Part shown: positions 1 through 11,242 of the stretch, piece after piece
Layout: every line of letters begins with the position of its first letter
How positions within the stretch are numbered: position 1 is the first letter of the stretch
Assembly: GCA_023459755.1 (NCBI GenBank)
Contig: JAEWSS010000326.1
Span: 1 to 11,242 of the forward strand
Origin: Verrucomicrobiota bacterium
GTDB taxonomy: Bacteria > Verrucomicrobiota > Lentisphaeria > Victivallales > Victivallaceae
DNA length: 11,242 nt
Reading direction: 5' to 3'
The notes under the pieces: model-generated
Seen by the model: only the letters and a program-made list of their open reading frames with translations
What the model was told of the DNA's origin: nothing
Database searches by the model: none
Program-made: the position numbers and the translations under genes

Positions 1-292
1 GGGTGACATCAAGTTTGAACTTGATGATCTTCATGAGCTTTTCAATTTCCGACGCGCTGGTCTGAACTCTGGAATAATGTTGATTTACTCCCGACCTGAT
101 AATTTTCATCAGCTGAATATTATGGGCGGTTTTTCTGCGATATTCCGGCAGGAGCGTCATCAATTCCCTGCCGGCGTCAACTGTGACGCGTTCAGAATTA
201 ATATAGTACCCGGCGCAAAAAATTGCGATTACGGCAAGTATGACGGCAAAAAATATTTTTCCCCCGCCGGAAATGCGTCTAAGCGCATTCAT
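1..292 (-). CDS. N-terminal part of an unrecognised single-pass membrane protein (cut off by window edge)
   Basis: The minus strand from ATG at 292 is open to the window edge for 97 codons. The product starts MNALRRISGGGK, followed by one strongly hydrophobic segment at about residues 13-31 (IFFAVILAVIAIFCAGYYI). A polar, charged stretch follows (about residues 32-97, including ELMTLLPEYRRKTAHNI and SEIEKLMKIIKFKL), which could be helical or coiled-coil. This looks like a type II signal anchor with the rest outside the cytoplasm. An AGGAG lies upstream, 13 bases from the ATG, which is a little long, and an in-frame TGA just upstream excludes an ATG further out. A promoter-like pair at 340-367 fits a short leader. 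I do not recognise the family. The C-terminus is outside the window, so no function is assigned. Confidence 0.6.
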   Translation of the reverse strand, partial: MNALRRISGGGKIFFAVILAVIAIFCAGYYINSERVTVDAGRELMTLLPEYRRKTAHNIQLMKIIRSGVNQHYSRVQTSASEIEKLMKIIKFKLDVT

Positions 293-653: not shown

Positions 654-3600
654 TCACACCAGGAGTGATAGTACGCCATTTTTTTCCTCAATGGAATAAC
701 CGTTTTTGCTTTGGCCGTATTCAAAAGAACAGAGCAAAGCGTCATTGTTATAGATTTCAATTTGAAGTCCGTCGAGTGTCGCCGTGTCGTCAACCGCCAT
801 CAAGTCAAAGCCGGACGTACTGTTTGCCACTTCGATTTTCAACAATTTGTCGCCGTCGGCAAAGCCGAATCCCTCGGCGTATGAACCGTATTCAACCTTT
901 ATTGTCGAAAACTCAAAGTCTCCGCCATAGGTCACGTTGCTCGATCCGGAAAACGAGACCGCGTCGAAATTCTTTAAATTGGCTGAAAATTCACCGTTGA
1001 AGTTATCAAACGCCAGCGTTCGCATGCCGGATACCGTTCCGGTGATGACTCCGTCACCCGACACTGTTCCCAGCGTCAGATTTTCGCCAAGTCCGGTAAA
1101 TGTAATGGTTGAATTTCCCTTGACCAGCGAGGCGCCGCCCTTTATGGAGTGCGCCGGATTGGCGCCGCCGCCGTAGATGTTGCCGAGAACGGTGACAACC
1201 GACGATGCTGAAATTTTTATCTCGGTATCGCCGAGAACGGTCGATACTCCGCCGTCATAGGCATACCCGCCGCCAAAGATGTCGCTGGCGATTGTGGAGT
1301 TTTCGATGGAAATTTTCACCGACTTTACGGTGGCCGTCACCCCGGAATTTTGTGCCTGCGCTCCGCCGACCACCCGGCTGATGGTTGCGCCGTTGACCGA
1401 GATCGCAATATCATTTGCGGTCAGCATTTCGCCAACCGCGGTTCCGCCTCCGACCACCCATGCCGAAGTGCCTTTGCCGGCGGCGATCAATTTCTGGTTG
1501 TCGGACTGCGCGATGGTGTTGATGGTTAAATTAACGTCATGTATCGCCACACTTTTTGACACGGCGCGCGAACCGCCGTAAATCACTCCCGTATAGCCGC
1601 CGGCGCTGATTGTAAGGGCGATTGCACCACCTACGGAAACGTCATTGCCGCCGCCGTAAACGTTGCACGGCGAGGCCTCGGCATTAAGCGCAACAAATGC
1701 GGACACTCCGCCGGCAATATCGGTCTTGGCCGCGGCGATGATCCCTTTTACCCGAATGCTTTTGGCGTTTAGAGAACAATTTCCGCTGGCATCAACCGTA
1801 CCGAAAAAGTCGGTGAATTTGAAATTGGTATTGTGTTCAAGGGTATCGCTCCAGGCGCCGATGTTGCCGGCAAGGTCGTTTGCCCGGACCCGGAACTGAT
1901 AGAGGGCGGCCTCCGCGATAAATTCAGCGGAAACGAGCGGCGAGAGGGTGAGCCAGCGCGTCCAGCTTTTGCCGCCGGCTAAACGATATTCGACATCATA
2001 TCCGGCGATGCCGGAGGTGGCGTCTTTTCCGCTCCAGCTGATGGTGGTCAACACGCCGTCGAGTCCGGCAATCTCCGGAAGATCGGAGTCCACCGTGTTC
2101 AGGGTGGTTGGCGTTTCGATGGGATCGTTGAAGTCGAAGTAGATTTTTGCGGTGTTGGTTATTTCCGTTCCGCTGCTCAGGTCTGATTTGGCGTTTATGG
2201 TATAATTGATATATCCTTCGCCGGTGCCGATGCTGTCGTTGATGGGGAGCAGACCGTTTTGCAGGTCCTGCAGCATGAAGCCGGATTCGGGATCGACGCC
2301 CATGAATTCGGCGACGAGCTGGGTGATGCCGGTCTCCTCGTCGGTCACGAGATTGATCGAAATCGTGGCGGTGACGGTATAATCCAGCACTTTCAGCTTG
2401 ACCGTGCCGTTGTAGGAGTCGCGTCCGTCGCCGACCTCAAAGTAGTTTCCGGCGATGCAGAAATTCCGCAGTTCAAAGCTGTCGAGGTCGTACTTTGCAG
2501 AGTCGAGCGTATCGAAAACGCGCACCCACTGCGCCGGAGCGGTGGCGAACTCCGGATCGTTCTCGAACTCGACCTTGTAAGAGAGTTGCGCCCCCGCCGT
2601 GACAAAGCCTTTTTCGCCCGCCCCCTCCGACACCGTCTTGTCGTTCGGGTCGACCGACCCGGATGTGTCGCTGGTGACCGAAAGGGTGACTGCTGCCGTA
2701 TTTTTACTTATCTCTCCGTCCGCGTCAACAACGGTCAATTTTATGGTAAAGCTGTTTCCGGCGGCAACTCGTACAGAGCCATATGTCCATTCATAGCAGT
2801 AGGAGCCGTCGGCTTCTTTTATTCGGTTGACCGTAATTGTCCGACCAGAATCATTATCGTCTCCCAGCGACCAGATATATTTGCCGATAGCGTTATTTTT
2901 TCCAAAGGCTTGTGATGCGAGGCCGTTTACGGAAAAAGAATGAGAATTGTCATTTTCTCCGGTGAATGAATATGATTGATTGTCACCGGCATTGGCAATC
3001 GGCGCAACATCATCGTAAGCAATGGTTGTTACGGCGACGTTCCATATGCCTAGCCCGTCGGAAATGCGGACGCCGGCGGTATTGCCCGCGTACTGCTTAT
3101 CTGCGACAGCAAGCCCAACGTATTTCACTTTTTCTTCATATGTTACAGATACAGGCAGTGAGCTTTCAGTGCCAATTGACTTCTTGTAACGATATTTCCC
3201 GGTGTCTTCATTTTTCTCCAATTCAAACCAGATATAACTTCCAATGCCGAATTGTCCGTCTTTTTGGTTGAACCCGACTTTATCCTGTGATTCAGAGCCG
3301 TCAAGCGTTACCAGCAAAACACCTTTTTCATCATATTCCTTACTTTTTTCCTTGATAATAGCAAACTCTGGAAACGCGTTATAACGGAAAGTATATGTGT
3401 TTCCTGAAACATCATAGTCTCCGGTTCCTTCGCCTAAATCAGCTTTTGCTTTTGCGTTCTGTTGGTCGATAAAATCATAACTTTTTAAAAATTTTAAAAG
3501 CATAGATGGAGAATTAGACCCAGCGCTCTTGTCGAACAGTGAGTTAGCAGGGCCAAAAATCCTAAACCCGAAAGGAACACTATACTTCGCCGTTTCCAGT

Positions 3601-6600
3601 GCTCGGCCCACAGCTAAGCTGCACCAATTAATTGCCCAGATAGAAGAGAAACTGCTTTTATTAAAATCAACAATATAGGCCGACATTTTTTCTTCCATTT
3701 TCTGATCTGCATATATTGAAAATGATTTATATTTGCTATTGGCGTCATAGTCCCACGCATGGCTGGCAGAGGAGGAAGGAAACAGGGGGGCTTGGGCCGT
3801 AATGTTATCTATGCCGATTTGGGATGACAATCTATTGTGATTAACGTTCATTGCGGCATGCCAAACCCCAGTGCCTGTATCATCAATATATATTCCTGTA
3901 TGGCATCCGTTTACATCAAAATTAGTGACGGTGTTATTGTTACAATACGCATACAAATTATCGCCTCCGCTGATTCCGATCGGGTCGGGGGAAATCCAGC
4001 GGCCGGTTTCGGGATCGTAGTTGCGGGCGCGGACAAAATAGGTTCCGGAGTCATTTTGCATCAGGCCGTAGCCGCCGACATAGGTGAAGTCGTTGGCAAC
4101 GCCTTCGGTCGCGGCAAGCACATTGCCCCACGGATCGTAGCTGTAGGTGTTCACCGCCGCGCCGTCCGCGCCGCTTACGGATACGGTTGTCCCCAGGGCG
4201 TCGGCGTTGAAGTAGTATTCGCCGCCGTTCCTGTCCGTGAAGCCGGAGAGGAGATTGCCCTGATAGTAGGTACGGTTCCAAGCTCCATCGGCGTATTCGG
4301 CGATAATGTTGCCGTTGCGATCAACCGTCCAGCTGGTGGTGACGCCGTTGGTGGCGGAACTGATTCGATTGCCGAGAGCGTCGTAACCGTATGTCCAGGT
4401 CTGTCCGGTGGATTTCAGCGTTTCCGTGGCGACGCGGTTGTCCGCGGTCCATGTGCAGGTGCGCTTTTCGTCTTCCAGGAGATTGCCGTTCGCGTCGTAA
4501 ACGTAAGTAAAGCCGTTGGCGCTGACGATCTGATTCAGATTGTTATACGTGTAAGTCGTGGTGATGCCGTTTTCGGTGGCGGTCAGGCGGTTGCCCATGG
4601 CGTCGTAGGTATAGGCAAGATTCTGCGTGACCGCGCCGGAGTCGTCGGTAAAAATCGCGCCGGTGAGCTGGTTGTTGACATCGTAGGTGTACGCCCACGC
4701 GCCGGACTCCGTTTCCATCGCAACACGGGAGACTTCGGTGTCATAGGTGTAGTGCCGATAGTTTTCAAGTTTGCCGGCCGTTGTGTAGTTGTCAATCGCG
4801 GTCACTTCGCCGTAGGAATTGTACGAATAGGTCGTATAACTCCCGTTGCCTTTGCTCTCTTTGACGAGACGGCCGTCGGCATCGTAATCGTAGTCGATAA
4901 TCAATGCGCCGGATTCGTCGGTGAGTTTATCATAACCGCCGTTCACCGTATAGGTGTAGTTGACCGCGTGGCCGAGTTCATCGGAATAACTCAAGACCCG
5001 GCCGTCCGCATCGTAGGTATAAGCAATGCTCCGTCCGTCGGTGTAACTCTGCCGCGTCAGATTGCCGCTCGCATCGTAGTTGAACGAAATATCGTTCGCC
5101 GTGAGCGTGTAGCCGTCGGCATTGTAGGTGTATGCGATGTTTCTGCCGTCGGAATAGGCGACATTGCTGTAATTGCCGTTGGCATCGACTGTGTAGGTTG
5201 CGGTTTGACCACCGCGCCCGGTCCATGCGGAAAGATTGCCGTCCGCATCGTAGGTGTACGACTCAAACGTGCCGTCCTGATAGGAGATTTTTGTCAATGC
5301 GTTGTCGGCATTGTAGATGTATTCGGTCACATTGCCGTTGGCGTCAGTGAATTTGGTCAATGCGCCGCTGTCGTTGTAGAGATAGAAGCTGGTTTCACCC
5401 GCCGGATTGGTGACGGAGGCGCGGTTGCCGTTCGCGTCAATGGTATAACTGGTGGTTTTGCCGTTGACGGTTTCGCTTGTCCGCACGCCGTCGGCGTTAT
5501 AGGTGTAGCTGTAAACGTTGCCGCGCGCGTCGGTATATCCGGTGAGACTGCCCGCTTCGTCATAAGTGTACAGTTCCGTAACGCCGCCGGAAATGATGGC
5601 TGACACATGACCGTTGGCATCGTAGGTGTAACTTGTCACCTTGCCCGCCGCGTCTTTCAAACTGGCGATGGTGCCGTCCGCGTTGTAGGTGTACAGCGTT
5701 CCATCCGCATACAAGGCGGATGCCTTGCTGCCGTCGGCATTGTAGGTGTAAGTGGTGATGCCGCCGTCGGGGGCGGTTTCCGAAATTAGCTGACCAGACG
5801 AATTGTAATTGCAGCCGGATGTTTCGCCGTTGCGGGTGACGCTGTAATAGACGCGGTTGCCGTCCGCGTCGTAGCCCATAATGTAGCAGTCGGTTGTCGT
5901 ATCAGACTGCGGCAGGACGTTGCCTGCCATGTCCTTTTTGAAATACTTGATGTTGTCGATCACGAAATACCGGCTTGGATCGTCCACGTCGATCTTATAG
6001 CCGCCCTCATCCGTGAGCGTATAAGTGGTGGTGACGCCGTCCTTGAGATACTGATACGAAACAAGATTTTCCTCGGAATCATATCCCGCAACGTAATATT
6101 CGCCCGCGACATCGTTCTGTCCCAGAATGTTGCCTTCGGCGTCGGTTTTGTAGTAGGTGATGTCGTCCACCACATAATAGTTCTGGTTGGATTTCGGAGC
6201 ATAGATCGCGTTGAATTGGAGGTTGGAAAAATCGAGATTGCCGGAATACCCGACATTAAATTCGAAATCGGAGAATGTAAAGATAGAGGAAAGTGCATTG
6301 CCCGCCGAGTCTTTGCCGCTCGCAAACCGACCGTCTTTATCGAAGGTGTAAGTATACAATTCTCCTGTAATATCATTTTTGATCTTTGCGATATTGCCGT
6401 CGGTGTTGTAATAGAGCGTGACGGCGCCGCCGTCGGAGCTGGTGAGTTTCACATCGCCCGCATCGCCGTAGACGAGCGTGATGGTTTTTCCGCCGCGTGT
6501 CACGGAAGTCAGACGTCCCGCCGCATCGTAAGAATAATTTTCCACCTGGCCGTCAGCTGTAGTATACTTGGTGAGCGAGTGTTCGAGCGTCGCAAAATAT

Positions 6601-8807
6601 TCGTAATTTTCCGCAGCTCCTGAAGCGGAGTTCGTTACTGAAACCAGATCGCCGTCCTCGGAATATTTATAGCTGATTGTCGTTCCGGAATTATCGTGAA
6701 TGCTCGTAATGTATCCAGTCGCCGTGTCGCGCGAAATCACCAGATATTCGCCGGTCACGGAATTGGTCAATCGGATTAATCTGCCGCTGGTGTCGTAAGA
6801 ACACGAAATACGCTCGTTTGTTTTACTCGTAACGCTCAACAGCCGTCCGTTGGCGTCGAACTGTTTTACCGTACCGTTCGCCTCGGTGAGTTTGTATCCG
6901 GTATTGTTGGTCTTCATCATAGAACCGTCACCGTTCACCGTTTGATAGCTGTTGGTATAGGTCGGCTGATAGAGGCGCGCATTCTCCCCTTCAATGAGCG
7001 TTAGATCGCCGTCGGAGTCAACAGAGAGTTTCACGTCCCAGTTGCAGCTCCAGCCGTAACCGAAGGAGCCCTCCGCATTGCGCCCGATCAGATCGGAAGC
7101 ATAAGTGCGGGTGAATTTCATCGCCAGTGTGCCGATGTTTTTGACAATATCCGTCGCTTCGGCAAGGTCGTTGAACGGTTGCATCGTGCCGGATTTCTGC
7201 ATCACCTCAAACGCCAGCAGTTCCGAAGTCGAACTGACGAAAGCGCGGTTGCCAAGCTCATTCAAATATTGCAGGTTGCCGACCACCATTTGGTAATAGC
7301 CGCCCCATGTGCCGCCGAACTCAATGGTAAACGCTTCGGTCATTGCGCTTTCAAATCCGGTTGAATATAGGTTGTTTGCAAAAACCTTGCTCCAGTCCAG
7401 CGGTGTCGTGTCGTCGGAATAAAGGCAGGTTACGTTCCAGTTGATATGGGAGTCTCCGAAATCCCAGTCATCCGTTCGCCAGCCGGTATAGGTGATTGGA
7501 ATGCGGATGCTTTCTCCGGGCCGGATGGTTCCGGCATTTTCTCCGCTGACAAAGAACGACAGCGAATCGGAGAATCCCGCCGGAATGCTCGACACCCAGA
7601 ACCCCTGATTGACTTTGGAACTGTCGAGCGTCAGAATCGCGCCCATGGTCTCCGAACCGTCCGCATGCGATTGAGTCGGAGTGAAGAACACCAGCGGCGC
7701 GTCAATTGCGGTGGTTCCGGTATTGGAACAGGTTAGATAGAGTGTTGAAACCGCATGTCGTCCAACGGTTCCCGGCGCGTAGAACGAATACTCGAATTTG
7801 CCTTGGCCGGGGCCGGTGATGTTGACTGCGTTTTCGCTTGTCACGGTGGTTTCGTCGATGAGTTTCACGGTATATTCGCCGTTGGCGAGAGTATCCGCGC
7901 CGACTGTGACTACAAGCGTTGAGCTTCCGGAATATAAAATGCTTTCCGGTGTGAATTCATTGCCGGCCGCATCGATAAGCGTGACGGCGGTGGATTTTGT
8001 GAAGTTGGTTCCGTTGACGGTCAGCGTGATTGCGGAAGTGTTGTCCTGCGAGGACTGCATGATTTTGTCGATGGCGAGCGGTGATTTTTCCGCCGTCAGG
8101 GTGTAGTCGAATGACTCCGAAACTCCTTTGGCGTAGACCATCACATAGACGTTGCGGGCAGCGATGCCGCCGGATAGCCGCAGCGTCCCGTCGGTGATGC
8201 GCTGAAGTTTGGTGTCATATTTTTCTCTGGTCGGGGCGTATCCATAACCGACATAAATTTCCATATTGGCCGCATCGCTCAAACTGTCAAGCGAAACATT
8301 GACGGATTCGCCGGCATTCTGAGTGAATTTATAGACGGCGAAATCGCCGGACATCGTCACCTTTTCCGTTACGGCGGCGCCAAGCGTCAGCGACGGGATC
8401 GTGACGGTGATTCGTGTTGCGATCAGGTTTTGCGCGGCTTCGGCGGCGGAGACGCCGGAATCCTCGTCATGATAGATATCGGAACGCACGAGAAGATAGT
8501 AACTTCCCTCCGCCGCGCCGGAAAGCGCGATATTCGCGCTGCCGGAAAGCGTTTGCCCCGCCGGCAGCCCGTTATTGTGGGTATATGTCGCCAGCAGGGT
8601 GTCGGAAATGTTCCACTTGTCGTCAACTGACAGATACACGCCGTCCGTCCAGCTTCCGGAAAGCGCACTGCCGCTTTCGTTGGCGATATTCCACGAATTG
8701 ACCAGACGGTTCAAGATTCTGCCGCCGGGTGCGGGGAACGCGGAACGCTTTGCCGCGAAATGCACCGCCTGCCAGCTCTGCACCGCGAATTGTCCGGCGA
8801 AGATCAT
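654..8807 (-). CDS. Giant multidomain RHS/YD-repeat surface protein, 5'-truncated
   Basis: A single frame of 2717 codons. Approximate domain order by residue: 36-130 CARDB-like, beginning inside its first strand (SWNIANESG, SWTDGVYLS); 140-237 PPC-like; 238-320 IPT/TIG-like; 330-560 further beta-rich modules; 575-590 start of the RHS shell (FGYGW); 640-1557 about 30 YD repeats; 1558-1635 RHS core; 1636-1790 probable papain-like domain; 1800-2045 two PKD-like domains; 2055-2238 a 'DPND...FEND' module; 2238-2325 FN3-like; 2330-2717 Gly-rich bead domain. This architecture points to a secreted, cell-surface adhesin or RHS delivery shell. No signal peptide is present because the 5' end is missing: residues 1-35 are antisense to the 4Fe-4S gene and look artefactual, so authentic coding starts near 8705. 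No immunity gene is evident downstream. Whether this truncated copy is expressed is uncertain. Confidence 0.85.
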   Translation of the reverse strand: MIFAGQFAVQSWQAVHFAAKRSAFPAPGGRILNRLVNSWNIANESGSALSGSWTDGVYLSVDDKWNISDTLLATYTHNNGLPAGQTLSGSANIALSGAAEGSYYLLVRSDIYHDEDSGVSAAEAAQNLIATRITVTIPSLTLGAAVTEKVTMSGDFAVYKFTQNAGESVNVSLDSLSDAANMEIYVGYGYAPTREKYDTKLQRITDGTLRLSGGIAARNVYVMVYAKGVSESFDYTLTAEKSPLAIDKIMQSSQDNTSAITLTVNGTNFTKSTAVTLIDAAGNEFTPESILYSGSSTLVVTVGADTLANGEYTVKLIDETTVTSENAVNITGPGQGKFEYSFYAPGTVGRHAVSTLYLTCSNTGTTAIDAPLVFFTPTQSHADGSETMGAILTLDSSKVNQGFWVSSIPAGFSDSLSFFVSGENAGTIRPGESIRIPITYTGWRTDDWDFGDSHINWNVTCLYSDDTTPLDWSKVFANNLYSTGFESAMTEAFTIEFGGTWGGYYQMVVGNLQYLNELGNRAFVSSTSELLAFEVMQKSGTMQPFNDLAEATDIVKNIGTLAMKFTRTYASDLIGRNAEGSFGYGWSCNWDVKLSVDSDGDLTLIEGENARLYQPTYTNSYQTVNGDGSMMKTNNTGYKLTEANGTVKQFDANGRLLSVTSKTNERISCSYDTSGRLIRLTNSVTGEYLVISRDTATGYITSIHDNSGTTISYKYSEDGDLVSVTNSASGAAENYEYFATLEHSLTKYTTADGQVENYSYDAAGRLTSVTRGGKTITLVYGDAGDVKLTSSDGGAVTLYYNTDGNIAKIKNDITGELYTYTFDKDGRFASGKDSAGNALSSIFTFSDFEFNVGYSGNLDFSNLQFNAIYAPKSNQNYYVVDDITYYKTDAEGNILGQNDVAGEYYVAGYDSEENLVSYQYLKDGVTTTYTLTDEGGYKIDVDDPSRYFVIDNIKYFKKDMAGNVLPQSDTTTDCYIMGYDADGNRVYYSVTRNGETSGCNYNSSGQLISETAPDGGITTYTYNADGSKASALYADGTLYTYNADGTIASLKDAAGKVTSYTYDANGHVSAIISGGVTELYTYDEAGSLTGYTDARGNVYSYTYNADGVRTSETVNGKTTSYTIDANGNRASVTNPAGETSFYLYNDSGALTKFTDANGNVTEYIYNADNALTKISYQDGTFESYTYDADGNLSAWTGRGGQTATYTVDANGNYSNVAYSDGRNIAYTYNADGYTLTANDISFNYDASGNLTRQSYTDGRSIAYTYDADGRVLSYSDELGHAVNYTYTVNGGYDKLTDESGALIIDYDYDADGRLVKESKGNGSYTTYSYNSYGEVTAIDNYTTAGKLENYRHYTYDTEVSRVAMETESGAWAYTYDVNNQLTGAIFTDDSGAVTQNLAYTYDAMGNRLTATENGITTTYTYNNLNQIVSANGFTYVYDANGNLLEDEKRTCTWTADNRVATETLKSTGQTWTYGYDALGNRISSATNGVTTSWTVDRNGNIIAEYADGAWNRTYYQGNLLSGFTDRNGGEYYFNADALGTTVSVSGADGAAVNTYSYDPWGNVLAATEGVANDFTYVGGYGLMQNDSGTYFVRARNYDPETGRWISPDPIGISGGDNLYAYCNNNTVTNFDVNGCHTGIYIDDTGTGVWHAAMNVNHNRLSSQIGIDNITAQAPLFPSSSASHAWDYDANSKYKSFSIYADQKMEEKMSAYIVDFNKSSFSSIWAINWCSLAVGRALETAKYSVPFGFRIFGPANSLFDKSAGSNSPSMLLKFLKSYDFIDQQNAKAKADLGEGTGDYDVSGNTYTFRYNAFPEFAIIKEKSKEYDEKGVLLVTLDGSESQDKVGFNQKDGQFGIGSYIWFELEKNEDTGKYRYKKSIGTESSLPVSVTYEEKVKYVGLAVADKQYAGNTAGVRISDGLGIWNVAVTTIAYDDVAPIANAGDNQSYSFTGENDNSHSFSVNGLASQAFGKNNAIGKYIWSLGDDNDSGRTITVNRIKEADGSYCYEWTYGSVRVAAGNSFTIKLTVVDADGEISKNTAAVTLSVTSDTSGSVDPNDKTVSEGAGEKGFVTAGAQLSYKVEFENDPEFATAPAQWVRVFDTLDSAKYDLDSFELRNFCIAGNYFEVGDGRDSYNGTVKLKVLDYTVTATISINLVTDEETGITQLVAEFMGVDPESGFMLQDLQNGLLPINDSIGTGEGYINYTINAKSDLSSGTEITNTAKIYFDFNDPIETPTTLNTVDSDLPEIAGLDGVLTTISWSGKDATSGIAGYDVEYRLAGGKSWTRWLTLSPLVSAEFIAEAALYQFRVRANDLAGNIGAWSDTLEHNTNFKFTDFFGTVDASGNCSLNAKSIRVKGIIAAAKTDIAGGVSAFVALNAEASPCNVYGGGNDVSVGGAIALTISAGGYTGVIYGGSRAVSKSVAIHDVNLTINTIAQSDNQKLIAAGKGTSAWVVGGGTAVGEMLTANDIAISVNGATISRVVGGAQAQNSGVTATVKSVKISIENSTIASDIFGGGYAYDGGVSTVLGDTEIKISASSVVTVLGNIYGGGANPAHSIKGGASLVKGNSTITFTGLGENLTLGTVSGDGVITGTVSGMRTLAFDNFNGEFSANLKNFDAVSFSGSSNVTYGGDFEFSTIKVEYGSYAEGFGFADGDKLLKIEVANSTSGFDLMAVDDTATLDGLQIEIYNNDALLCSFEYGQSKNGYSIEEKNGVLSLLV
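657..1820 (-). other. C-terminal Gly-Gly-Gly bead domain of the RHS protein
   Basis: Residues about 2330-2717. From about 2380 to 2560 short glycine beads recur at irregular spacing of about 25-45 residues: VYGGGND, IYGGSRA, VVGGGTA, VVGGAQA, IFGGGYA and IYGGGAN. Between them lie Val/Ile/Thr/Ser strands such as ISVNGATISR and VKISIENSTI. This is the look of a beta-solenoid, as in secreted adhesins. The last 150 or so residues (from LAFDNFNGEF to the end) form a separate, bead-free beta-rich tail that may be a sorting or attachment domain. No LPXTG or other known sorting signal is seen. Confidence 0.55.
2690..3965 (-). other. AT-rich module inside the RHS gene
   Basis: By hand count, 3661-3720 has 17 G/C of 60 and 3481-3540 has 21 of 60, while 4081-4140 in the adjacent RHS core has 36 of 60. 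Codon choice shifts with it, with many A/T-ending codons. The left edge falls near 2690 and the right edge at the end of the RHS core near 3965, so the block carries the papain-like domain and the two PKD-like domains (about residues 1614-2040). The pattern suggests that this segment was acquired separately from the flanking coding sequence. No flanking direct repeats were found by eye. Confidence 0.55.
3438..3902 (-). other. Probable permuted papain-like (NlpC/P60- or LRAT-type) domain directly after the RHS core
   Basis: Residues about 1636-1790 begin HTGIYIDDTG and continue VWHAAMN, then about 80 residues later have AINWCSLAVGRAL. The order His (H1636, also H1650) before Cys (C1729, in an N-x-C-S-x-x-V setting) is that of circularly permuted papain-like enzymes such as the YiiX and LRAT-like families. 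Those hydrolyse amide or ester bonds in peptides or lipids. The position, immediately after the RHS core, is where toxin or effector cargo usually sits. The call is from motif order only: H-x-G-I-Y, a second His motif, and a Cys at the start of a predicted helix. The substrate cannot be told. It could also be an inactive or structural domain. Confidence 0.45.
3903..4136 (-). other. RHS core (RHS-associated conserved domain)
   Basis: Residues about 1558-1635 carry the hallmark motifs in order: YDPWGNVL, then GGYGLMQNDSGTYFVRAR, NYDPETGRWISPDPIG and ISGGDNLYAYCNNN, ending FDVNGCH. In RHS proteins this segment seals the cage and contains aspartates of a self-cleaving aspartyl protease; variable C-terminal domains follow it. 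Here the usual final DPxG is DVNG, with Asp kept and Pro lost. The composition changes to AT-rich immediately afterwards, which is typical of an RHS C-terminal exchange point. Confidence 0.9.
4137..6890 (-). repeat. RHS/YD-repeat array within the giant protein
   Basis: About 30 degenerate units of the form YTY(N/D)A(D/N)G.....T occur between about residues 640 and 1557, for example YTYNADGTIASL, YTYDANGHVSAI and YTYDADGNLSAW. They are visible in the DNA too, as recurring variants of gccgtcggcattgtaggtgta (near 5113, 5488, 5672 and 5730). In known RHS/Tc toxins and teneurins such repeats build a hollow beta-cage that encloses a C-terminal cargo. Spacing is irregular near 5760-6180, where a different 70-residue module is inserted. 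Confidence 0.9.
5760..6179 (-). repeat. Tandem duplication of a 70-residue module inside the YD-repeat array
   Basis: Two adjacent units exactly 70 codons apart start at 6179 (YYVVDDITYYKTDAEGNILG) and 5969 (YFVIDNIKYFKKDMAGNVLP). They share a Y-(Y/F)-V-(V/I)-D-(D/N)-I-x-Y-(Y/F)-K pattern, then D-x-x-GN-(I/V)-L-x-Q, and a later GYD...N.V. Similarity is clear over the first 45 or so residues and fades toward the ends, where the second copy returns to YD-like sequence. The copies have diverged at DNA level, so the duplication is not recent. I do not recognise the module as a named domain. Confidence 0.7.
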
Positions 8808-9186
8808 CGTTCCGGCTCCCGGCGGCGGCGGCCCGGTGTCGCTGGATTTGAGCCGCGGCGCGTGTCAATTTGACTGCAACCGCTGTTCGCAACTCTGCCC
8901 GACCGGAGCGATTCTTCCGCTGACGCTGGCCGCGAAACAGCAAACGAAAATCGCGGAGGCGAAATTCAATCCGCGAAACTGCATCGTCTTTCAGGAGGGG
9001 GAACCATGCGGCAAATGTGCCGGGGTTTGTCCGGTTCACGCGATTTCGCTTCGCAGAAACGGAACGCCGCGCCCGGTCGATACCGCGCTCTGCATCGGTT
9101 GCGGCGCGTGCCAAAACGTCTGTCCGGCGCAGGAAAAAGCGATGACCGTTCATGAAATTGAAACTCAGATTCGACTGGAGGCGTGA
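8575..9186 (+). CDS. Four-cluster 4Fe-4S ferredoxin-type protein (NapG/MauM-like), N-terminus missing
   Basis: The open frame is 203 codons. From about residue 46 it matches the C-terminal half of large ferredoxin-type electron-transfer proteins, starting at the signature LPPGAGNAERF. Four cysteine sets are seen: C63/C66/C69/C73-P, C97/C101/C104/C108-P, C136 with C145/C148/C152-P, and C173/C176/C179/C183-P. That makes up to four 4Fe-4S clusters, for passing electrons between redox partners. The first 42 or so residues are antisense to the RHS gene and resemble no ferredoxin, so the usual N-terminal part (Tat signal or membrane-anchored region in relatives) is absent. ATG 8575 is the frame's only ATG before the domain; a TTG at 8698 would give a 163-residue form. 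It heads the rightward operon with tatA, tatC and an exported oxidoreductase. Function of the truncated copy is doubtful. Confidence 0.75.
   Translation: MWVYVASRVSEMFHLSSTDRYTPSVQLPESALPLSLAIFHELTRRFKILPPGAGNAERFAAKCTACQLCTANCPAKIIVPAPGGGGPVSLDLSRGACQFDCNRCSQLCPTGAILPLTLAAKQQTKIAEAKFNPRNCIVFQEGEPCGKCAGVCPVHAISLRRNGTPRPVDTALCIGCGACQNVCPAQEKAMTVHEIETQIRLEA
8700..8712. other. Breakpoint where two opposed genes are both 5'-truncated
   Basis: On the minus strand recognisable CARDB-like sequence (SWNIANESG) begins near 8702-8705 with nothing authentic upstream. On the plus strand the recognisable ferredoxin sequence (ILPPGAGNAERF) begins near 8707-8712. Both families normally have long N-terminal extensions. 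The two truncations therefore meet within about a dozen bases, and each frame runs on as a meaningless antisense extension. No transposase, terminal inverted repeat or obvious target duplication is visible at the point. It is either a real recombination junction or a chimeric assembly join. Confidence 0.65.
9177..9181 (+). promoter_or_regulatory. Ribosome binding site for the LarE-like mini-ORF
   Basis: A perfect GGAGG lies nine bases upstream of ATG 9191, overlapping the last codons of the 4Fe-4S gene. It is the main reason to take the mini-ORF seriously and implies translational coupling to the ferredoxin gene. Confidence 0.5.
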
Positions 9187-9190
9187 TACG

Positions 9191-9295
9191 ATGGACCACT
9201 ATAAAGACCTCGGCTTTCAATTTGTCACCCTTGATCTGGCGGGCTTCCATTCGGGATGCTTCGATCAACCAACCCACCCAACGACGGAGGTGTAA
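9191..9295 (+). CDS. 34-residue mini-ORF resembling the C-terminus of LarE (sulfur transferase)
   Basis: The ORF begins at ATG 9191 with GGAGG upstream, four bases after the 4Fe-4S stop codon. It ends at TAA 9293-9295, one base before the tatA ATG. Its sequence, LGFQFVTLDLAGFHSG, resembles the conserved tail of the ATP-dependent sacrificial sulfur transferase LarE, recalled as 'GF-x-YVTLDLxGYRSGSMNE'. LarE is normally about 270 residues with a PP-loop ATPase domain, none of which is present here. Its Arg before Ser-Gly is His in this copy, and the terminal SMNE is replaced by CFDQPTH. So it is either a relic of a deleted larE gene or a small peptide that happens to keep this tail. Its in-frame stop lies next to the tatA ribosome binding site, so it may also serve translational coupling. 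The similarity is from memory and unscored. Confidence 0.45.
   Translation: MDHYKDLGFQFVTLDLAGFHSGCFDQPTHPTTEV
9286..9290 (+). promoter_or_regulatory. Ribosome binding site for tatA
   Basis: GGAGG lies six bases upstream of ATG 9297, within the last codons of the mini-ORF. It supports this start over the in-frame ATG at 9183, whose 38 extra residues do not resemble TatA. Confidence 0.7.
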
Positions 9296-9296
9296 C

Positions 9297-9515
9297 ATGT
9301 CACTCGGATTTACGGAAATCATTCTGATCGCGCTCTTTGTATTGCTCATTTTCGGAGCGAAACGCATCCCCGAACTCGCGCGGGCGTTCGGTCGTGCGTC
9401 ATATGAATTCAAGAAAGCGAAAAACGCTCTGGCCGGCGAGAGTCAGGAACTGATCGACGCGGCGGAAAAGTCCGCCGAAAAAGAAGATAAAAAAGCAGAA
9501 AAAAAGAACGCATGA
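9297..9515 (+). CDS. tatA: Sec-independent protein translocase subunit TatA
   Basis: 72 residues, the usual size of TatA. The N-terminus MSLGFTEIILIALFVLLIFG is a short transmembrane helix. It is followed by the hinge and amphipathic helix FGAKRIPELARAFGRASYEFKKA, the family hallmark (FG-x3-PEL...G...FKKA), and then an acidic/basic, Lys/Glu-rich cytoplasmic tail (EKSAEKEDKKAEKKNA). TatA oligomers form the protein-conducting element of the twin-arginine system, which exports folded cofactor-containing proteins. I see only one TatA-type gene and no TatB, which suggests a minimal TatA-TatC system. The start at 9297 is chosen for its GGAGG and because the longer frame from 9183 adds non-TatA sequence. 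Its stop overlaps the tatC start (ATGA). Confidence 0.92.
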   Translation: MSLGFTEIILIALFVLLIFGAKRIPELARAFGRASYEFKKAKNALAGESQELIDAAEKSAEKEDKKAEKKNA

Positions 9516-10222
9516 GCGAAAACGATAACACGTTGATCTCCCATCTGGAAGCGCTGCGCCGTACGCTGATCGCCTGCGTTGCGGTCACGGCGCTGGCGTA
9601 TCCGGTCGGATTCTTCGTGTCGCCGTATGTCATCAACTTTCTCGTGCAGTGGAGTTTCCCTGAAAGCATCGGAAAACTTCACTACTTCGCTCCGATGGAG
9701 GTGTTCTGGGTGCAGTTGAAACTCGCGCTGATTCTGGCGCTCGGCATCGCGTATCCGTGGAACGTATGGCAGCTCTGGCGTTTCCTGCTGCCCGCCTTGT
9801 ACAAGGGCGAACGCAAGGCGCTCGGCTGCTGGGTGGTCTTGGCAACGGTGCTGTTCCTTGGCGGCGTGGCGTTCTGCATCGGTGTGATTCTGCCTTTGCT
9901 GATGAATTTCTCCGGTGGGTTCGCCACGCCGGAACTCCAGCCGATTCTAGGACTTGCAAATTTTTTGAATCTCGCCGGATGGCTGATGCTCTCTTTCGGC
10001 GTGATGTTCCAGTGGCCGGTTCTGGTGCTGCTGGCGGTGCGGTTCGGGGTGATTTCCGCTGAAACCCTTGCAAAGAAGCGCCCGTATATTATGACGGTGA
10101 TTTTGATCGTTGCGGCGATTCTCACTCCGCCTGACGTGGTGAGCCAGATCATGCTGGCCGTACCGACCTGGCTCTTGTTTGAACTTGGATTGTTTTTAGC
10201 CAAACGAATGGAGAAAAAATAG
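9512..10222 (+). CDS. tatC: Twin-arginine translocase receptor subunit TatC
   Basis: 236 residues, typical for TatC. Hallmarks are the N-terminal SHLEALRRTL (residues 10-19; family H-x2-ELR-x-R), PMEVFWVQLK (61-70), PWNVWQLWRFLLPALYKGER (82-101), with E100 matching the essential Glu of E. coli TatC, and the C-terminal LTPPDVVSQ. Six membrane helices are expected and visible as hydrophobic blocks at about 17-41, 66-90, 104-130, 150-176, 188-205 and 207-230. TatC recognises the RR signal of the substrate and recruits TatA. It overlaps tatA by four bases (ATGA) and has no clear ribosome binding site of its own, so it is probably translationally coupled to tatA. The next gene starts two bases after its stop. 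Confidence 0.94.
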   Translation: MSENDNTLISHLEALRRTLIACVAVTALAYPVGFFVSPYVINFLVQWSFPESIGKLHYFAPMEVFWVQLKLALILALGIAYPWNVWQLWRFLLPALYKGERKALGCWVVLATVLFLGGVAFCIGVILPLLMNFSGGFATPELQPILGLANFLNLAGWLMLSFGVMFQWPVLVLLAVRFGVISAETLAKKRPYIMTVILIVAAILTPPDVVSQIMLAVPTWLLFELGLFLAKRMEKK

Positions 10223-10223
10223 A

Positions 10224-11242
10224 ATGAACCGACGTGATTTTTTGAAAAGCGCACTGACATTGGCCGCTCTTGCCCCGATGACCCGCCTCGCGGCGAAGGC
10301 CGGAGCGGACGGTGACAAGGCAACCGACATTGCCGAAGGCGGACAGGTCACCCGCCGACGCTATAAAAATACCGGGATGACCCTGCCGCTGCTCGGTTTC
10401 GGTTGTATGCGCCTTCCGCAGATTTCCCCGGATAACCCGGCAGTTGACGATGCCACCGTTCAGAAAATGGTTGACAGGGCAATGAAAGGCGGCTGCAATT
10501 ATTTTGATACCGCCTACATGTATCACGACGGCGAAAGCGAACGCTGTCTTGGCAGACTGCTGAAAGCGTATCCGCGGGATTCTTATTATCTTACGGATAA
10601 AATGCCCGCATGGTTTGCAAAGAACTCCGGCGACATTGAGCGCATTTTCAAGGAACAGCTTGCCCGCTGCGGAACCGACTATTTTGATTTTTATATGCTG
10701 CATGCGCTGGATGCGAACAACTGGGCGCTGTCTGAAAAGTTCAAGGCATACGAGTTTCTGGAACGGATGAAAAAAGAAGGAAAAATACGAAAACTGGGCT
10801 TCTCATTTCACGATTCGCCCGAAGTCCTTCAGAAAATCGTTGATGCCAGGCAGTGGGATTTTGCCCAGATACAGCTTAATTATCTTGACTGGGAGCTTTA
10901 TCGCTCACGCGAACAGTATGAAATTCTGACCAAGGCGGGGATTCCGGTTATTGTAATGGAGCCTCTGCGCGGCGGTTCGCTCGCCACGTTGAGTCCGGAC
11001 GCGGTTGCCATTTTGAAAAAAGCCGCACCGGACGCGAGTGCGGCGGCATGGGGGCTACGGTATGTTGCAAGTCTGCCCAATGTGCTTTGCGTTCTTTCCG
11101 GTATGTCGCTGCCCGAACACATGGAGGACAACATAAAAACGTTTTCGCCGTTGGCTCCTCTGACCGCCGTCGAACGCGAAACTCTCGACCTCGCGGTCAA
11201 GGAGTATCGCAAACACCTGGCGGTTCCGTGCACCGCCTGCCG
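10224..11242 (+). CDS. Tat-exported aldo/keto reductase with C-terminal ferredoxin motif (partial)
   Basis: Open to the window edge for 339 codons. The N-terminus MNRRDFLKSALTLAAL is a twin-arginine signal (R3R4-x-F-L-K), with an AAKAGA region near residue 23 for cleavage. The aldo/keto reductase TIM-barrel signatures are GFGCMRLP (58-65) and the catalytic tetrad D95, Y100 (FDTAYMY), K126 (TDKMP) and H160 (MLHA). The layout matches the predicted oxidoreductases COG1453, recalled as having a C-terminal 4Fe-4S motif; the window ends in VPCTACR, the start of that cysteine cluster. The reaction is NAD(P)H- or ferredoxin-linked carbonyl or similar reduction, with unknown substrate. GGAG ends ten bases before the ATG, and it starts two bases after tatC. 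Because the Tat system exports folded cofactor proteins, it is the probable substrate of the adjacent TatAC. The remaining C-terminus is outside the window. Confidence 0.88.
   Translation, partial: MNRRDFLKSALTLAALAPMTRLAAKAGADGDKATDIAEGGQVTRRRYKNTGMTLPLLGFGCMRLPQISPDNPAVDDATVQKMVDRAMKGGCNYFDTAYMYHDGESERCLGRLLKAYPRDSYYLTDKMPAWFAKNSGDIERIFKEQLARCGTDYFDFYMLHALDANNWALSEKFKAYEFLERMKKEGKIRKLGFSFHDSPEVLQKIVDARQWDFAQIQLNYLDWELYRSREQYEILTKAGIPVIVMEPLRGGSLATLSPDAVAILKKAAPDASAAAWGLRYVASLPNVLCVLSGMSLPEHMEDNIKTFSPLAPLTAVERETLDLAVKEYRKHLAVPCTAC

Follow-up and report, generated by a model that had tools for sequence, protein, structure and literature searches.

Why should two long open reading frames, one for a giant RHS-repeat protein and one for a ferredoxin, overlap head to head in contig JAEWSS010000326.1 (11,242 nucleotides; hereafter the window) from a Verrucomicrobiota bacterium of the class Lentisphaeria? 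The minus-strand frame (positions 654–8807) encodes 2,717 amino acids with RHS repeats, DUF6531 and DUF7619, while the plus-strand frame (8575–9186) encodes a 4Fe-4S ferredoxin of 203 amino acids and is followed by tatA and tatC. The overlap spans 8575 to 8807. An earlier note on this DNA had proposed that both genes lose their 5′ parts at one point within 8690–8720, as a sign of an inversion or deletion breakpoint or of an assembly chimera. Comparison with relatives bore this out. The identity of the window ferredoxin to its best partner ends, and relatives of the RHS protein continue, at a point that could be narrowed to about 8694–8697. None of the homologues inspected has its natural start at these residues, and the relatives examined show no head-to-head overlap of the two genes; a homologue of that kind or a conserved overlap would have spoken against the proposal. 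Two genes that are normally long and intact have been cut and joined head to head, most likely either by an ordinary strain rearrangement or by an assembly mistake.

The best protein partner of the window ferredoxin was P0120, a protein of 435 amino acids from an NCBI-sourced public contig of 80,448 bases. From position 8695 (first codon 8695–8697, encoding E) to the stop codon, 163 of 163 residues were the same as in P0120; in the 20 residues directly upstream of 8695 only three agreed. The window therefore holds the 3′ part of a gene for a NapH-like membrane polyferredoxin (8695–9186, plus strand; 163 codons plus stop, with Fer4 domains). Compared with P0120 as a NapH/NapF-like protein, its cluster-binding C-terminal part is identical, while the 272 residues that precede it are absent. 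The retained part begins at ELTRRFKILPPGAG, ahead of the LPPGAG segment, which refines the earlier placement of the start inside that segment. Pfam analysis found the C-terminal 4Fe-4S dicluster domains of NapH-like membrane polyferredoxins in the window ferredoxin, but their N-terminal hallmark, Fer4_5, which is present in P0120, was not among the window's hits. The N-terminal half of P0120 is itself NapH-like below the NCBIfam cut-off (TIGR02163 and TIGR00402 both fell below it). The perfect match suggests that an intact ferredoxin gene is present in the same or a sibling species. P0120 also lacks six residues, including two cysteines (at EIVGKCATVC), that all six of the remaining full-length proteins aligned with it possess.

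A long polyferredoxin is the usual form among relatives. DNA searches gave 80 ferredoxin loci, of which L001–L014 were studied closely and L015–L019 only translated; the nearest lie mostly in genomes named Lentisphaeria, Lentisphaerae or Victivallales/Victivallaceae. Ten of the 14 close loci read as frames of 441–526 amino acids, and in L013 the gene is cut off at the start of its contig. A query with the complete L001 protein placed the N-terminal half immediately upstream at each of 44 loci (14 from the DNA-relative set and 30 from the genome set). The 14 recur among the 30, and the count is thus 30 of 30 distinct places; these rank highest among over 100 matches spread over 104 genomes, the remaining matches being judged by frame length only. 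Those 104 genomes, out of 197 of the class, are the ones with ferredoxin matches at E ≤1e-20, many of them distant. Further, all 120 ferredoxin hits longer than 350 amino acids, picked with a full-length query, aligned from past their residue 100. A frame of 186 amino acids in genome G186 was considered as a natural short form and rejected, since the gene is cut off by its contig, which stops at 3567, a few bases past the last matched position, 3560. The polyferredoxin gene is interrupted in several related draft genomes, by frameshifts in L004, L006, L114 and L124 and by a stop in L008.

On the other side, the window holds the 3′ part of an RHS-repeat/CARDB-type giant protein gene (654–8693, minus strand; 2,679 codons plus stop), with RHS repeats, DUF6531 and DUF7619 (PF05593, PF24595 and PF20148) and with its 5′ part missing. 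In a Pfam scan, 14 stretches of the protein matched the RHS repeat family PF05593. The first 400 residues after the join matched 62 proteins, the best four being 60–67% identical and 3,081–4,486 amino acids long; the three named among the eleven best hits (P0034, P0035 and P0041) are from Victivallales or Lentisphaeria. Relatives start aligning at their residue 494 to 1892 (15 proteins listed among the 28 aligned of the 62). Relative to the RHS-repeat giant proteins of Lentisphaeria (P0032–P0037), with which it shares RHS repeats and DUF7619 and 57–67% identity over the 400 residues compared, the window protein thus lacks roughly 490–1890 N-terminal residues, as judged from the same 15. The last RHS-homologous codon in the window is that of a tryptophan (8691–8693). 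In all 13 RHS genomic loci examined, the frame extends further upstream by way of a conserved (V/I/L)-x-W; the window has N-S-W, with N two residues before the W. By eye, and from the Pfam lists of some of the hits, the window protein would begin inside a CARDB-like domain.

Two sequences, each contiguous elsewhere, therefore adjoin at one point. Ferredoxin sequence should not reach left of 8694, because P0120 has G before the E and its codon would not match window positions 8692–8693; RHS sequence should not reach right of 8697, because its relatives have V, I or L where the window has AAT (N). From the P0120 residues and the RHS relatives, rather than from the DNA of the parents, we infer an overlap between the two sides of 0–4 bases, with at most about four (CGAA, 8694–8697) possibly common to both. 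As far as relatives indicate, no shared stretch as long as a k-mer lies at the join, as a repeat-driven assembler misjoin would show. The missing parts were not recovered within the window: the N-terminal half of the ferredoxin gave only weak matches there (E 0.01 or worse), and the RHS N-terminal parts tried gave none at E ≤0.1. No ferredoxin was found at E ≤1e-3 in five RHS loci of 15–20 kb. A viral origin was also considered and set aside: viral contigs held no stretch matching the exact 32-base junction and yielded no confirmed relative of the RHS protein or the ferredoxin.

Both frames remain open by antisense read-through, as had been claimed. The RHS frame runs on through the antisense of the ferredoxin gene to an ATG at 8807 (8694–8807, minus strand), and the ferredoxin frame begins at a TTG at 8575 within the antisense of the RHS gene (8575–8694, plus strand), in sequence unlike P0120; both N-terminal extensions are spurious. 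The 30 codons needed by the RHS frame are open in the same antisense frame in 11 of 14 relatives, so this read-through means little. The 39 codons needed by the ferredoxin frame are open in one of 13 relatives, and this opening is hence less usual. Open antisense frames carry little weight, and the TTG is simply where a mechanical caller places the ferredoxin start. Whether the join is real or an artefact, neither fusion frame is a designed gene or one to be interpreted.

These openings are what can be said for the view that the two proteins are naturally short, or that their genes form a conserved pair overlapping head to head, since both frames pass through the join, one of them as only one relative in 13 would allow. 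Such an explanation is nevertheless unsupported, because the N-terminal half of the ferredoxin is in place in every one of the 30 distinct places and RHS relatives continue in all 13 loci; the alignment of the 120 long hits from past residue 100, within a set picked with a full-length query, also stands against it, and we consider it very improbable. Programmed DNA inversion (phase variation), with a cut in the ferredoxin gene serving to switch the RHS protein, would be in keeping with a giant repeat-protein gene, a sharp join and an intact alternative of one partner. However, no inverted repeat lies on the join (there are seven inverted pairs in 8300–9300, none with an arm at 8690–8700), none of the six window frames scanned was recognized as a recombinase, the partner on one side is a gene for electron transfer, and no second case was seen in the 30 places. 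The chance of a programmed switch therefore appears slight in the extreme. Just as little credit can be given to a recurrent real switch, in which a strain-level rearrangement present as a minority form in the population would split the RHS protein from its N-terminal region and disable the polyferredoxin.

The real contest is between a recent illegitimate joining in the sampled strain and a chimeric contig, in which distant pieces of one genome or two were put together, either by the assembler or in a chimeric library or amplification molecule, the sequence in the living cell being unbroken. The former is slightly favoured here, at about an even chance; the latter is a strong contender whose probability falls somewhat below one half. 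Metagenome assembly is known to suffer from chimeric contigs (PMC7299287), and in PMC1855051 amplification chimeras were mostly inverted joins (406 of 475). With the chimeras described in the two papers the window shares a head-to-head join, a tiny overlap and undamaged flanks, the orientation being a fit to amplification chimeras if the sample was amplified; unlike them, its two pieces point to the same bacterial class and have no long stretch in common at the join, again as judged from relatives. The intact ferredoxin gene with an identical remaining part (P0120) also suits a chimera. Codon usage is alike on both sides, which speaks against a chimera, although the test has low power (in 11 loci, the window not among them, the own half came first in four each way); as a means of telling one genome from two it was abandoned as too weak.

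Several observations weigh against a real joining. The join has been seen in one contig only. There is no sign of decay, the 2,679 RHS codons being without a stop and the 163 ferredoxin residues all identical; such intact stumps, undamaged right up to the join, are what an artefact or a very recent event would leave. In a search limited to a length range, no RHS protein exceeded 67% identity. The RHS N-terminal region was unmatched in 11 of 11 genomes with near ferredoxins (66–86% identical), a set that held no positive control. Across the class it matched 21 of the 197 genomes, G188 and G055 not being among them, and the best genome for it, G050, is absent from the sets that carry this ferredoxin or this TatC at E ≤1e-20. 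Finally, 15 bases touching the join (8691–8705) recur in direct orientation at 8783–8797 with 80% identity, probably by chance. A mismatch between the hosts of the RHS and ferredoxin relatives had looked promising as a discriminator, but was weakened by the occurrence of RHS C-terminal relatives in G007 and G055, both of which have near ferredoxins. Because these relatives lie near contig starts, the missing N-terminal region in near-ferredoxin genomes may reflect assembly gaps. RHS/DUF7619-type pieces were seen near contig starts at G007:C25, G055:C111 and G003:C261, as if such genes often break assemblies.

In favour of illegitimate joining, sequence comparisons point to the same class for both sides, an agreement that chance joins between members of a mixed community would rarely produce. 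The similar codon usage, the lack of a long shared stretch and the RHS C-terminal relatives in G007 and G055 count on the same side. Under a recent joining, the breakpoint at 8694–8697 would connect internal parts of two unrelated Lentisphaeria-type genes without homology. Had the genes been divergent neighbours, it would be the trace of a recent deletion in the sampled strain; otherwise it would be one end of an inversion or translocation there, and the ends would have been sealed by illegitimate, possibly microhomology-assisted, joining. Both genes would become stumps, the ferredoxin without its membrane part and the RHS protein without its long N-terminal region. Known illegitimate deletion or inversion junctions (non-homologous or microhomology-mediated) are similar in having a sharp join with few shared bases (probably 0–4 here), truncation of both genes, and the existence of one partner as a whole gene whose corresponding part is identical; they differ from the window join in that the latter is known from a single contig.

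To the right of the ferredoxin lie tatA, tatC and an aldo/keto-reductase-like gene (9297–11240, plus strand), colinear with L001; the reductase was recognized below cut-offs only, and its gene extends past the window's end. Between the ferredoxin and tatA, the window reads MDHYKDLGFQFVTLDLAGFHSGCFDQPTHPTTEV in 34 codons (9191–9295, plus strand). Its opening nine residues are similar to the beginning of LarB in L005 and to that of a LarB-like frame in L008, and those that follow are similar to the end of LarE in L002. L002, L005 and L008 keep some lar genes (above NCBIfam cut-offs: LarB in L005, LarC and LarE in L002), and L001 has none between the ferredoxin and tatA. The segment thus appears to be what a deletion of larB-larC-larE, the nickel pincer cofactor genes, left behind, with the fusion at shared L-G-F codons. 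Downstream of the RHS gene, a frame of 97 amino acids (2–292, minus strand) runs off the window; its N-terminus appears membrane-like by eye. It hit no Pfam family and matched none of the 197 class genomes, a search that had no positive control and is uninformative on the taxonomy of the left flank.

The join is most likely an ordinary breakpoint, and not a new kind of gene arrangement. In the open-licence literature, no paper was found linking Victivallis to RHS repeats or Lentisphaer... taxa to inversion. The finding is mainly a warning. A mechanical gene caller gives an RHS protein of 2,717 amino acids (ATG at 8807) and a ferredoxin of 203 amino acids (TTG at 8575), and both N-termini are nonsense, since each derives from the antisense strand of its neighbour. 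Should the join be real, the strain has lost a membrane polyferredoxin whose relatives are widespread in the class.

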